Below are positions 25,147 through 30,022 of a stretch of 64,000 nucleotides of DNA, piece after piece; position 1 is the stretch's first letter; each line of letters starts with the position of its first letter. The position numbers and the translations under genes are program-made. The stretch comes from Sulfurimonas sp. HSL3-2 (GTDB lineage: Bacteria > Campylobacterota > Campylobacteria > Campylobacterales > Sulfurimonadaceae). The stretch covers positions 496,001-560,000 of the forward strand of contig NZ_CP147917.1 in assembly GCF_039645965.1 (NCBI RefSeq), read 5' to 3'. Below the pieces are notes generated by a model. It was not told where the DNA came from, made no database searches, and saw only the letters and a program-made list of their open reading frames with translations.

Positions 25147-25182
25147 AATCTGTAAAAAATTATCTATTTTAGAGGAGAAAAA

Positions 25183-25470
25183 ATGACAATTACAAAACGC
25201 GTGACATTTATTGCAAAGCCGGACGGCATTGAGAAGATGAAAGAACTTTTAAGTGCGATGGTCGTACCTTCAAAAGCGGAAGACGGATGTCTTTTTTATG
25301 AGATATTTCAGTATGAGAACAAGCCTGAGAAGTTTATGGCAGTCGAGACTTGGAGAGACGAAGCAGCACTTGACGGGCACAAAGCATCAGCGCACTACAA
25401 GATCTACAAATCAAGTTATGAGCCGTACTGCCTTGACAAATACACTGACGAACTAGAAGTACTGGGTTAA
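25183..25470 (+). CDS. Antibiotic-biosynthesis-monooxygenase fold protein, LsrG/YgiN-like
   Basis: A 95-residue ferredoxin-like ABM-fold protein: TITKRVTFIAKPDGIEKMKE, AEDGCLFYEIFQ, FMAVETWRDEAALDGHKAS and HYKIYK. The late H-x5-HY pattern is shared by LsrG (phospho-AI-2 isomerase) and YgiN-type quinol monooxygenases. Because the next two genes are a class II aldolase and an AI-2 kinase homologue, an LsrG-like role on a phosphorylated pentanedione is attractive. That is inference from context. A strong AGAGGAG ribosome site precedes the ATG, and the gap to the aldolase is 3 bases. Confidence 0.8.
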   Translation: MTITKRVTFIAKPDGIEKMKELLSAMVVPSKAEDGCLFYEIFQYENKPEKFMAVETWRDEAALDGHKASAHYKIYKSSYEPYCLDKYTDELEVLG

Positions 25471-25473
25471 GCC

Positions 25474-26649
25474 TTGAAAAATCTATGGTCTGATGAGGAA
25501 TCAAAATCCTTTACAAGCGATTTAGAATTAAGGGTCTATACCTCAAATCTTTTAGGCAGAAGTGACGAGCTTGTCCTTCACGGCGGCGGAAACACATCGG
25601 TAAAAACAGAGGTAGAGGGCGAAGATATCCTTTATGTAAAGGGGAGCGGCTGGGATCTGGTCAGCATCAAAGCAGAGGGTTTCGCACCCGTGAAACTTGA
25701 CACTCTCTTAGAGATGGCGAAGCTGAAAACTCTAAGCGACACCGATATGGTAAGCGGACAAAAAGCTGCGATGATAGATAAAACTGCTCCAAACCCATCG
25801 GTCGAGGCGATCCTACATGCCATCATCCCTTTTAAGTTTGTAGACCATACGCATGCAGATGCAGTCGTGACAATATCAAACTCGGCAACGGGCGTAGAGA
25901 ACATCAAAGCGCTGTTTCCAAACTTTTTGATCATCCCGTACGTGATGCCCGGCTTTGTCTTGGCTCAGACTATCTATAAAAAAAGTAAAAATCTGGACTG
26001 GTCAAAATGCGAGGGGATCATTCTTCACAACCACGGTATCTTTACCTTTGACGATGATGCAAAAAGATCATACACGAAGATGATAGATGCTGTCACAAGA
26101 GCTGAAGAGTTTTTAAATGAGAATGCACAAGTGAGTCTGAAAACTTCTGCTTCTAAGAAAAAAGTCGATCTCAAAAAACTGCAACACATGATCTCAAAAC
26201 ATAAGGGCTATGAGGTGGTCTTACATGTAGACACATCAGACCTGGCATATACCTATGCGACTCAGGATGATCTGGCACATGCCGCATGCAGAGGTGTTTT
26301 GACTCCTGAACACATCATCAGGACAAAAAGGACTCCTTTAGTCTTGGAAGATAACAGTTTTGAAGCAGCGATCAAAAAGTATGAAGAAGATTATATTGAG
26401 TATTTTAACGATTTTGTAAACGGCGAGATCTGTCTCAATCCTGCTCCTAACTATGCCGTCATCAAAGATTTCGGAGTTGTTAGTTTCGGCAAAAATGAAA
26501 AAGAGGCCGCTATTATCGGTGATATCATAGAGCATACGATGCTTGCGGTTCTTCGCGCGGATATGCTTGAAGGGTACAAAAGCATTAACCTCTCAGACAG
26601 CTTCGCCATGGAGTACTGGGAACTCGAACAAGCAAAACTAAGGAAGTAA
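25474..26649 (+). CDS. Class II aldolase/adducin-family protein (RhaD-like aldolase domain)
   Basis: 391 residues. The N-terminus YTSNLLGRSDELVLHGGGNTSVK and the block VDHTHADAVVTI resemble the aldolase half of bifunctional rhamnulose-1-phosphate aldolase/dehydrogenases. The short-chain dehydrogenase half is absent. Zinc-ligand histidines are visible in DHTHAD and in LHNHGIFTF. Such enzymes cleave 1-phosphorylated ketoses to DHAP plus an aldehyde. The start is TTG at 25474. It lies 3 bases after the LsrG-like gene and 2 before lsrK, so these three form a tight operon; the substrate is probably the kinase product. Confidence 0.85.
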   Translation: MKNLWSDEESKSFTSDLELRVYTSNLLGRSDELVLHGGGNTSVKTEVEGEDILYVKGSGWDLVSIKAEGFAPVKLDTLLEMAKLKTLSDTDMVSGQKAAMIDKTAPNPSVEAILHAIIPFKFVDHTHADAVVTISNSATGVENIKALFPNFLIIPYVMPGFVLAQTIYKKSKNLDWSKCEGIILHNHGIFTFDDDAKRSYTKMIDAVTRAEEFLNENAQVSLKTSASKKKVDLKKLQHMISKHKGYEVVLHVDTSDLAYTYATQDDLAHAACRGVLTPEHIIRTKRTPLVLEDNSFEAAIKKYEEDYIEYFNDFVNGEICLNPAPNYAVIKDFGVVSFGKNEKEAAIIGDIIEHTMLAVLRADMLEGYKSINLSDSFAMEYWELEQAKLRK

Positions 26650-26651
26650 AC

Positions 26652-28214
26652 ATGTCTTATCTTATGGCCATTGATGCGGGAACGGGAAGCGTAAGAGCGG
26701 TCATATTCGACACGAATGGAAATCAGATAAGCGTCTCCCAACGCGAGTGGACGCATCTTGCAGAAGAGGGCGTAGCAAACAGCATGAGCTTTGACTGTAA
26801 AAGCAACTGGCTGCTTACATGTAAGTGTATAAGCGAAGCTCTCTCTTTGGCAAATCTCAAAGGCGAAGATATAACGGCTCTGAGTGCTACAAGTATGCGT
26901 GAGGGGATCGTCCTTTACGATAATGTGGGCAATGAACTCTTTGCGGTGGCAAATGTGGATGCAAGGGCAGACAAAGAGGTAAAATACCTCAAAGAAAACT
27001 TCCCGGGCATAGAGGAGGAGTTTTACGGGGCTTCTGGTCAGACCTTTGCACTGGGCGCGCTCCCTCGCATCATGTGGCTGAAAAACAACAAGCCCGATGT
27101 TTATGAAAAAGTGGCTTCTATCTCTATGATAGGGGACTGGATACTTTTCAAGCTCAGCGGTATTATTGCGACAGATCCGAGCAACGGCGGGACCACGGGG
27201 ATATTCTCACTAAAAAACAGAGACTGGGACAGCACAATGGCAGGCAGGATCGGTCTGAAAGAGGATATCTTTCCTCCATGTCTTGAGGTCGGAACTCTTA
27301 TGGGAGTTGTCAGCGAAAAAGCATCACAGGAAACGGGACTCTCGACATCAACCAAAGTCGTGATGGGCGGAGGCGATGTGCAGCTGGGTTCAGCTGGACT
27401 TGGTGTCGTAAAAGAGGGGGATGTGGCCATTCTTGGCGGATCTTTCTGGCAGCAGGTGGTCAACATTCCAAGCAGTGTGATCCCTCCAAAAGATATCTCC
27501 GTACGTGTCAATCCGCATGTCGTAAGCGGGCAGTCTCAAGCCGAGGGGATAACCTTTTTCAGCGGTCTCGTGATGAGATGGTTTAGAGATGCGTTTTGCG
27601 ATATGGAAAAGCTTGAAGCAAAAGAGCGCGGAATAGACACCTACGCAGTCTTGGAAGAGAAAGCCAAAGAGGTACCTGTGGGATCATACGGCATTATCCC
27701 GATATTTTCGGACTCTATGAAGTACGGCAAATGGTACCACGCAGCTCCGAGCTTTTTAAACCTTTCCATAGACCCGCTTACATGTAACCGTGCGTCGATG
27801 TTTAGAAGCCTGCAGGAGAATGCGGCGATTGTTTCAAGCATAAATCTGGATAAGATCAAAGAGTTTACGGGTATAGAAATAGACACGGTCGTCTTTGCAG
27901 GAGGAGCGAGTAAGGGTGCGCTTTGGTCACAGATACTCTCAGACGTCACGGGATGCAGGGTCAAGATCCCAAAAGTCACAGAAGCAACGGCACTCGGTGC
28001 TGCCATGGCTGCAGGTGTAGGAGCGGGAATATACAAAGACCTGATCTCTGCCGCCGAGGAGCTTGTAGTCTGGGATAAAAGCTATGAACCCGACATGGAA
28101 AATAAAAAGACCTATGATGAACTGAAAATTAAGTTCAACCACGCTTACGAAGCACAGCTTAAGCTTGTAGACGAGGGTGTCACGACATCAATGTGGAGTG
28201 CTCCGGGATTATAA
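26652..28214 (+). CDS. lsrK: Autoinducer-2 (DPD) kinase homologue, FGGY family
   Basis: 520 residues, aligned in my reading almost end to end with E. coli LsrK: AIDAGTGSVRAVIFDTNGNQ, SMREGIVLY, VDARADKEV, DPSNGGTTG, VMGGGDVQLG, GSFWQQVVN, MRWFRDAFC, FSDSMKYGKWYHAAPSF, VFAGGASKG and the terminus TTSMWSAPGL. FGGY kinases phosphorylate sugars; LsrK phosphorylates the quorum signal precursor DPD/AI-2. No Lsr ABC transporter or LsrR is nearby. Two TTACATGTAA palindromes fall inside the gene (26815, 27778), encoding LTCK and LTCN. Confidence 0.88.
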   Translation: MSYLMAIDAGTGSVRAVIFDTNGNQISVSQREWTHLAEEGVANSMSFDCKSNWLLTCKCISEALSLANLKGEDITALSATSMREGIVLYDNVGNELFAVANVDARADKEVKYLKENFPGIEEEFYGASGQTFALGALPRIMWLKNNKPDVYEKVASISMIGDWILFKLSGIIATDPSNGGTTGIFSLKNRDWDSTMAGRIGLKEDIFPPCLEVGTLMGVVSEKASQETGLSTSTKVVMGGGDVQLGSAGLGVVKEGDVAILGGSFWQQVVNIPSSVIPPKDISVRVNPHVVSGQSQAEGITFFSGLVMRWFRDAFCDMEKLEAKERGIDTYAVLEEKAKEVPVGSYGIIPIFSDSMKYGKWYHAAPSFLNLSIDPLTCNRASMFRSLQENAAIVSSINLDKIKEFTGIEIDTVVFAGGASKGALWSQILSDVTGCRVKIPKVTEATALGAAMAAGVGAGIYKDLISAAEELVVWDKSYEPDMENKKTYDELKIKFNHAYEAQLKLVDEGVTTSMWSAPGL

Positions 28215-28270: not shown

Positions 28271-30022
28271 ATGCAAACGACACTCACTCAAGTATGGCTG
28301 GACAGATTAGATGTTTTAGATATCGCTTTTCAACCTATACTTAATATTCATACCGGTAAAATATTTGCTGTTGAAGCACTTTTGCGCAATGTCGGTGATG
28401 CCGGGTTTAAATCTATCTTTTCACTTTTTGACACGGTATATAAAGAGGGGGTTCTTTACCCCTTTGATATTAAGCTCAGAGAGAAAGCATTTGAAAAATT
28501 TACAAAAATAGATGGATATAAAAATATCAAACTGTTTTATAACCTCGATAACCGTCTTTTTGAGATCAAAAACTACTCTCATGGAAATACGACCAGACTC
28601 CTGGAAAAGTTCGATATCTCTAAAGACAATATCTGTTTTGAAATATCCGAACGTCATGAGATAACACAGGAATGCGATATAACCACTGTCTTAAGACACT
28701 ATCAGGAAGAAAACTTTTGTATAGCGATAGATGATTTCGGAGTGGGCCATTCAGGGTATAAACTCCTTTATGAAAGCACGCCGGAGGTCATCAAGATAGA
28801 CAGGTTTTTCTTAAGCGGCATTGAGAAAAATCTGAAAAAGAAACTGCTTGTGCGAAACATAACAAATCTGGCGGTGCAGTTTGGTATAAAAGTGATTGCC
28901 GAGGGTATAGAGACAAGAGAAGAGCTGCTTACATGTAAAGATATAGGATGCCATTTTATCCAAGGCTATCTGATCCAAAGACCGACGCAAAACACGCAAG
29001 AGATACGTTATGAGTATGAAGAGATCATAGATATCCTACATAATGATAAAAGAACAAACGATATAAACTCTCAAATAAATCCCTATGTAGACAGAGCAAA
29101 ACCTTTTGATGTAAAGACAAAGACGGCAGATGTGTTGCAATATCTCAAAGAGAACCCAACCGTAAGCGTCATGCCTATTATTAACTCCCTTGAAGAACCG
29201 CTTGGAGTGCTGCAGGACAAGGAGATAAAAAACTTTTTATACTCGCCTTACGGGATGTCTCTTTTAAACAATGACTTCACACAAAAGACAAAACTGAAAA
29301 ATCTGATGACTCCATGCGCAACAGCGGATATCAACAGTGACATATCCACGATAATAGAACTATTTTCAAACAACCCGGAATCAGTCGGCATACTCATAAC
29401 TAAAAACTCCAAGTATCTTGGTTTTTTGTCCGCACGTGCGATCATTACCATCATGAACGAACAAAACCTCATATTTGCCAGGGAACAAAATCCGCTTACG
29501 AAACTACCCGGTAATATCGCTATTGACCGCTATCTTTCAAATATCTCAGACGATAACTGCATCTTGTGTTACCTTGATCTTGATAATTTCAAAGCCTACA
29601 ACGATAATTACGGATTTAGAAACGGAGACAGGGTGATCATGCTTTTTGCAGATATCTTAAAACAGAAACTGCCCAATGAGTTCTTTAAAGCACATATCGG
29701 CGGGGATGATTTCTTTGTTGCCGTAAAGTTTCATAAACAAGATGAGCTGCCATACGTGGATGCCATCAAAAAGTGTATAGATAAATTTTCCGAAGATGTG
29801 AAAGCGTTTTATAGTCAAGAGGACAAAGAAAGAGGGTACATCGTCTCAAAAGACAGGGAAGGAAATACAAAAGAGTTTGATCTTTTAAGTGTCAGCGCTT
29901 CTGTCATAGTCGTAAAATCAAAAACAAGAAGAGATCTGGAGAGTATAAATCTGGTGCTATCTTCTCAAAAGAAGATCGCAAAAAAAGATCAGGGGAAGAT
30001 CTGTATCAGCAGTTTGTTATAG
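28271..30022 (+). CDS. EAL-CBS-GGDEF cyclic-di-GMP protein with altered GGDDF site
   Basis: 583 residues, cytoplasmic. The EAL domain comes first (~15-250; VEALLRN, DDFGVGHSGYKLL, EGIETREEL), then a CBS pair (~275-400; NPTVSVMPIINSLEE, LMTPCATADINSDIS), then a C-terminal GGDEF domain (~405-575; CYLDLDNFKAYNDNYGF). The last's active site reads HIGGDDFFVAV, a conservative GGDEF to GGDDF change. CBS pairs commonly bind adenine nucleotides, so energy status might control turnover. The gene appears monocistronic, with AT-rich promoter-like sequence just upstream. Confidence 0.9.
   Translation: MQTTLTQVWLDRLDVLDIAFQPILNIHTGKIFAVEALLRNVGDAGFKSIFSLFDTVYKEGVLYPFDIKLREKAFEKFTKIDGYKNIKLFYNLDNRLFEIKNYSHGNTTRLLEKFDISKDNICFEISERHEITQECDITTVLRHYQEENFCIAIDDFGVGHSGYKLLYESTPEVIKIDRFFLSGIEKNLKKKLLVRNITNLAVQFGIKVIAEGIETREELLTCKDIGCHFIQGYLIQRPTQNTQEIRYEYEEIIDILHNDKRTNDINSQINPYVDRAKPFDVKTKTADVLQYLKENPTVSVMPIINSLEEPLGVLQDKEIKNFLYSPYGMSLLNNDFTQKTKLKNLMTPCATADINSDISTIIELFSNNPESVGILITKNSKYLGFLSARAIITIMNEQNLIFAREQNPLTKLPGNIAIDRYLSNISDDNCILCYLDLDNFKAYNDNYGFRNGDRVIMLFADILKQKLPNEFFKAHIGGDDFFVAVKFHKQDELPYVDAIKKCIDKFSEDVKAFYSQEDKERGYIVSKDREGNTKEFDLLSVSASVIVVKSKTRRDLESINLVLSSQKKIAKKDQGKICISSLL

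Follow-up and report, generated by a model that had tools for sequence, protein, structure and literature searches.

A putative AI-2 disposal cluster in Sulfurimonas combines LsrK with an ABM-fold protein and a stand-alone class II aldolase

Overall organization and proposed pathway

Three closely spaced genes in the genome of the sulfur-cycling bacterium Sulfurimonas sp. HSL3-2 encode an ABM-fold protein, a stand-alone class II aldolase and a predicted autoinducer-2 (AI-2) kinase, LsrK. They lie within the stretch of DNA analysed here (the window, 64,000 nucleotides of contig NZ_CP147917.1; G000:C1:496001-560000), which is part of a complete genome (G000) of 2.24 Mb. We consider it likely that this trio carries out the cytoplasmic disposal of DPD, the AI-2 precursor, made by the cell's own LuxS, with the ABM protein acting as isomerase and the class II aldolase replacing LsrF. 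LsrK would convert DPD to phospho-DPD, and the ABM protein, in an LsrG-like reaction, would convert phospho-DPD to 3-hydroxy-2,4-pentanedione-5-phosphate (P-HPD). The aldolase would then break the C2–C3 bond of P-HPD to give dihydroxyacetone phosphate (DHAP) and a C2 unit, in place of the coenzyme A (CoA)-dependent thiolase LsrF. In the known pathway, LsrG converts phospho-DPD to P-TPO/P-HPD, from which LsrF moves the acetyl group onto CoA, leaving DHAP (PMC8016206). Because the cell makes its own DPD, no import would be needed. The substrate, the order of the steps, the products and the role of the ABM protein are inferred. The features of the locus are as follows.

25147..25182, + strand: intergenic gap upstream of the ABM gene; 36 bases, with ribosome-binding site AGAGGAG
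25183..25470, + strand: ABM-fold protein, 95 aa; Pfam PF03992 ABM, 55 bits; proposed phospho-DPD isomerase (LsrG role)
25474..26649, + strand: stand-alone class II (RhaD/PRK08324-type) aldolase, 391 aa, TTG start; proposed to perform the cleavage step in place of LsrF
26652..28214, + strand: LsrK, predicted autoinducer-2 (DPD) kinase, 520 aa; Pfam FGGY_N/FGGY_C, 144/78 bits

The genes share one strand and are separated by 3 bases (ABM–aldolase) and 2 bases (aldolase–LsrK), which confirms the coordinates and tight spacing reported in a first-pass annotation of this DNA. The 36-base gap leaves no room for a separate promoter, making it likely that the trio is co-transcribed with the genes upstream. 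A scan for consensus promoters and terminators was uninformative, with 21 promoter-like sites where 12.5 ± 3.5 were expected, and an Rfam search of the window and four loci found no RNA element over thresholds. The closest relatives of the window aldolase and LsrK bear the name Sulfurimonadaceae; the aldolase of one genome of the same family (G037) is that of Sulfurimonas indica.

The kinase

The window LsrK scores 867 bits on NF008187, the curated model for autoinducer-2 kinases (cut-off 528), and is 56% identical over its full length to LsrK of Escherichia coli MG1655 (5ya0), in agreement with its earlier description as a close LsrK homologue. Ten residues have been listed in a review as the putative DPD site (T21, S91, M92, R93, D253, V254, F276, Q278, E308 and I310; PMC8016206). 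All ten are present in the window protein, and they are retained in 105–106 of 106 Campylobacterota LsrK homologues. The other E. coli FGGY kinases match at far fewer of these positions (XylB 2/10, FucK 1/10, GlpK 4/10, RhaB 0/10). By these comparisons the third gene is predicted to encode a true LsrK, an orthologue with an intact putative pocket. An open-access literature search found no paper describing LsrK in these Campylobacterota. A separate lsrK gene, on a plasmid of Deinococcus psychrotolerans (L190:8992-10961), is flanked by genes for a cupin (downstream) and an MFS transporter (upstream); the annotation near it shows no lsr importer, aldolase or ABM gene, and this is possibly another non-canonical setting for LsrK.

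Co-inheritance across the Campylobacterota

Co-occurrence of the trio with luxS had been named beforehand as a check, and a failure of the three genes to be conserved together in relatives as grounds for refutation; a survey of 249 Campylobacterota genomes found them conserved together. LsrK is present in 26 genomes and the aldolase in exactly those 26, a match with P of about 1e-35 if genomes were independent, which they are not. The ABM protein, which within the phylum is restricted to LsrK-bearing genomes, occurs in 25 of them, the remaining one being a draft (G199); luxS is present in all 26. Presence of the trio genes also varies in concert inside five genera (g2, g9, g32, g43 and g49). 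Co-conservation of the trio is far beyond chance.

All three genes are found in 52 of the 80 named loci with LsrK, and among the 59 loci with at least 3 kb of upstream sequence, ABM lies within 8 kb in 55 and the aldolase within 5 kb in 44. In genus g5 (G132, G175 and G216), luxS is arranged head-to-head with the aldolase gene at a distance of ~0.1 kb, with the ABM and LsrK genes adjoining. The cluster is adjoined by metK in 22 of the 80 loci. In Sulfurimonas, a radical S-adenosylmethionine (SAM) gene that by eye resembles mqnE of menaquinone synthesis often directly follows lsrK–metK (L033, L040, L091, L098, L101 and others); its recurrence may reflect synteny alone or an additional link to SAM metabolism.

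Substrate source and missing lsr components

The host genome carries MTAN and LuxS, so the cell should make DPD. It contains no match to LsrF at E ≤ 0.001, and across all 26 trio genomes the LsrF search gave only weak hits, confined to the C-terminal half of the protein. Neither LsrR nor LsrB was found in the host or in the other 25 trio genomes; for the importer this covers LsrB, as LsrA, LsrC and LsrD were not searched genome-wide. An earlier survey likewise reported no LsrB in epsilonproteobacteria (PMC2561040). The absence of LsrR and LsrF, first noted for the window, thus extends to the complete host genome and is accompanied by that of LsrB. Together with the presence of LuxS and MTAN and the co-conservation of the trio, this supports the earlier reading that phospho-DPD is degraded inside an AI-2-making cell.

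The enterobacterial lsr system (LsrACDB, LsrR, LsrK, LsrG and LsrF) resembles the trio in having an LsrK orthologous to that described here, with its putative pocket intact, an ABM-fold protein and DHAP as the expected product. It differs in that the trio genome lacks LsrB, LsrR and LsrF, the ABM protein falls outside the LsrG family, a class II aldolase is present instead of a thiolase of class I fold, and the trio host itself makes AI-2. The trio appears to act like the breakdown branch of lsr, yet it is not an lsr operon.

The aldolase

The window aldolase matches NF006197 with 455 bits over model positions 1–410 of 583. The PRK08324 models, named 'bifunctional aldolase/short-chain dehydrogenase', are matched over their first ~400 positions, and the open reading frame ends before the short-chain dehydrogenase (SDR) half. 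From these matches, the protein is best described as a RhaD/PRK08324-type aldolase::SDR enzyme reduced to its N-terminal, aldolase half. Automatic alignment with E. coli RhaD was poor and misplaced the catalytic Glu, and motif matching against RhaD/FucA was used instead. This assigns E111 as the class II catalytic Glu and H125, H127 and H187 as the three metal-binding His residues; all four are invariant in 32 homologous aldolase sequences. The AlphaFold model (pLDDT 91) has 3m4r as its top PDB match, followed by FucA and RhaD structures, and its matches include DrdA with bound DHAP (6btg). The class II fold of the earlier 'RhaD-type class II aldolase' assignment therefore stands, but the enzyme belongs to the PRK08324 family without SDR and is not of the E. 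coli RhaD type.

The bifunctional rhamnulose-1-phosphate aldolase/SDR RhaEW (PRK08324/TIGR02632) shares the aldolase domain and catalytic residues and differs in having the SDR half. A role in rhamnose or fucose catabolism was rejected: the window enzyme scores below the curated RhaEW cut-offs, the rhamnose-type enzyme lies far off in the tree, and no rhamnose genes were recognised in the neighbourhoods read. Stand-alone and fused forms of the aldolase separate in the tree.

The LsrF slot in alphaproteobacterial lsr operons

Support for an aldolase at the cleavage step, as proposed in the first-pass annotation, comes independently from lsr operons with LsrACDB in which the same type of stand-alone aldolase replaces LsrF. 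We found such an aldolase next to lsrB in nine plasmid-borne operons of alphaproteobacterial type (Sinorhizobium meliloti, S. medicae, Shinella, Rhizobium WL3, Thalassospira, Tritonibacter, Alloyangia, Paracoccus and 'Roseateles XES5'), which hold LsrACDB, LsrR, LsrK and LsrG and no LsrF. In eight of them the aldolase is 36–40% identical to that of the window (tblastn), LsrG is present and LsrF was not found; for the Paracoccus operon, these assignments, that of the aldolase included, come from the annotation. In the operons of Klebsiella and Lacticaseibacillus, LsrF is present and a class II aldolase is absent. By gene content, this comparison places the predicted function of the aldolase in the AI-2 pathway at the LsrF step. 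The S. meliloti and Rhodobacter operons were given earlier as lsrBDCARKG (PMC2561040), and an open-access literature search found no paper assigning the aldolase of these operons.

The alphaproteobacterial systems (S. meliloti pSymB, Thalassospira, Paracoccus and Rhodobacterales) thus share with the trio LsrK, an ABM protein, a stand-alone PRK08324-type aldolase and the lack of LsrF. They differ in having LsrACDB and LsrR, whereas the trio genomes are without LsrB and LsrR; their LsrG proteins are 41–54% identical to E. coli LsrG, and alphaproteobacteria, unlike the trio hosts, lack luxS (PMC2561040).

A single ancestor for all lsr-linked stand-alone aldolases was rejected (approximately unbiased test, p = 0.0001). 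The alphaproteobacterial lsr set branches with an mtnA-linked fusion of Ruegeria, and the Campylobacterota stand-alone enzymes form a separate group, apart from the Campylobacterota fusions; the Ruegeria branch is long and sampling is sparse. Two recruitments, each losing the SDR half, would fit this tree best. The lsr operon and aldolase of 'Roseateles sp. XES5' (L187, NZ_CP084754) cluster tightly with Rhizobiaceae; the record is marked UNVERIFIED_ORG and the organism name is probably wrong.

Relation to mtn-linked salvage

The aldolase::SDR fusions related to the trio enzyme occur in operons with mtnK and mtnA:

L084:6501-10764, L085:7550-11808, L086:136-4393 and L091:4412-8661: mtnK-mtnA-(class II aldolase::SDR) operons, Sulfurimonadaceae

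Such an operon could be a version of the DHAP shunt whose fused SDR handles the aldehyde product. At a Ruegeria locus (L197), mtnA lies beside the same kind of fusion. The DHAP shunt and 5-deoxyribose salvage (MtnK-MtnA-Ald2; DrdK-DrdI-DrdA) follow the same logic of kinase, isomerase and class II aldolase ending in DHAP, and their aldolase is related to that of the trio and is often encoded in the same genomes or operon. They differ in that their kinase and isomerase belong to unrelated families and that MtnA is absent from the host genome; on this ground the DHAP shunt was rejected as the function of the trio itself. MtnA scores above cut-off in 12 of the 249 genomes, eight with the trio and four without it; the aldolase therefore tracks LsrK, not MtnA.

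In four Sulfurimonadaceae (G162, G185, G125 and G199), the sole aldolase is of the aldolase::SDR type and is encoded next to mtnA; mtnK was seen in three of these genomes. In the congener G162, ABM and lsrK lie 61 bases apart at the syntenic position, the aldolase gene is deleted, and the gap retains sequence like both ends of the lost gene. Its mtnK-mtnA-aldolase::SDR operon is elsewhere in the genome. Since a fused enzyme can be the sole aldolase in a genome with LsrK, it can apparently stand in for the trio aldolase in the LsrK pathway, pointing to a closely related cleavage reaction. In a Sulfurimonas metagenome-assembled genome (L091), genes for ABM, metK, mtnK, mtnA, the fused aldolase, the stand-alone aldolase and lsrK follow one another in a row.

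The ABM protein and points that weigh against DPD disposal

Several observations count against the proposed pathway. The ABM protein scores 29 bits on the LsrG model NF007791 (cut-off 135), on which E. coli LsrG scores 192 bits and the alphaproteobacterial LsrG proteins 106–121 bits. Membership of the LsrG family is rejected on this score; the earlier 'ABM-fold LsrG-like' label holds for the fold and only loosely for LsrG. Its isomerase role is accordingly drawn from genomic context. E55, H66, H71 and Y72 are invariant in the ABM proteins and common to E. coli LsrG, and some of these shared residues may be general to the fold. Presence of luxS in all trio genomes is only weak evidence, because luxS is frequent in the phylum (208 of 249 genomes; P about 0.007 before phylogeny correction). 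Several of the 26 genomes have LsrK and ABM with only the mtn-type fused aldolase, so that the linkage could in part reflect general salvage of SAM by-products. Finally, a classical aldolase requires a beta-hydroxy ketone and P-HPD is a diketone; the last step thus needs unusual chemistry or an extra reductase.

The cleavage reaction and alternative roles

RhaD-type aldolases reportedly take ketones as electrophiles, a finding ascribed to Laurent et al. in 2018. Class II aldolases of this fold stabilize the DHAP enediolate and release DHAP (PMC6079011), and they could therefore break the same C2–C3 bond of a hydrated diketone, leaving acetate. For the last step we would favour a split of the hydrated ketone into DHAP and acetate, because in two separate lineages the LsrK-linked aldolases have no aldehyde-handling SDR.

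That same absence argues against a reductive route, which would still dispose of AI-2 and which we regard as unlikely, if the best of the alternatives. Here, an unlinked oxidoreductase would reduce phospho-DPD or P-HPD to 5-deoxypentulose-1-phosphate, and an ordinary retro-aldol reaction would yield DHAP and acetaldehyde. This would suit the kinship of the trio aldolases to fusions sited with mtnK-mtnA in several Campylobacterota, or with mtnA in Ruegeria, which are expected to cleave 5-deoxyribulose-1-phosphate; where the fused enzyme is the sole aldolase, the genome still has LsrK and, except in one draft, ABM. No reductase gene, however, accompanies the trio, and none is recurrent among the lsr operons of alphaproteobacterial type.

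Salvage of 5-deoxyribose from 5'-deoxyadenosine is improbable. In this scheme, which would replace MtnK-MtnA, the ABM protein would form 5-deoxyribulose, LsrK would phosphorylate its C1 hydroxyl and the aldolase would release DHAP and acetaldehyde. The host has MTAN and no MtnA and is therefore expected to produce 5-deoxyribose, for which no other outlet is apparent, and the trio aldolase is related to the mtn-linked enzymes. Yet eight of the 26 genomes with the trio also have MtnA, and L091 holds both gene sets, so the two routes coexist. Retention of the putative DPD pocket in LsrK, the same three enzyme types inside alphaproteobacterial AI-2 import operons and the adjacency of luxS in genus g5 likewise speak against it. 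The first-pass suggestion of a related deoxypentulose as substrate is less likely as a main role because of this coexistence, and survives in the grouping of the aldolases with DHAP-shunt enzymes. A role in tuning an intracellular phospho-AI-2 signal for some regulator, by analogy with enteric bacteria, where phospho-DPD is the lsr inducer and is lowered by LsrG and LsrF (PMC2728841), is very improbable, as none of the 26 genomes has LsrR or LsrB and no regulator recurs in the trio neighbourhoods.

For DPD disposal by the trio, a fuller account can be offered tentatively. A class II aldolase may have been recruited at least twice, in Campylobacterota and Alphaproteobacteria, from a DHAP-shunt-type aldolase::SDR, and would convert P-HPD to DHAP and acetate by CoA-independent hydrolytic cleavage. 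In Campylobacterota it would serve transporter-free disposal of a LuxS by-product, in some species clustered with 5-deoxyribose/methylthioribose salvage and metK. It is a long-standing question whether luxS serves signalling or only detoxification in the methyl cycle, and such a pathway, if true, would give direct evidence that DPD has a metabolic fate in environmental Campylobacterota. The pathway would also represent a second, LsrF-independent means of destroying AI-2, give the class II aldolase of Sinorhizobium-type lsr operons a testable function and possibly provide an AI-2-quenching module with no need for CoA.

Downstream gene

The next gene downstream of lsrK (window positions 28271-30022) encodes what looks, by eye, like an EAL/CBS/GGDEF cyclic-di-GMP protein. 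In the congener G162 (L036) the same gene lies after lsrK, which makes this a synteny conserved at the genus level.

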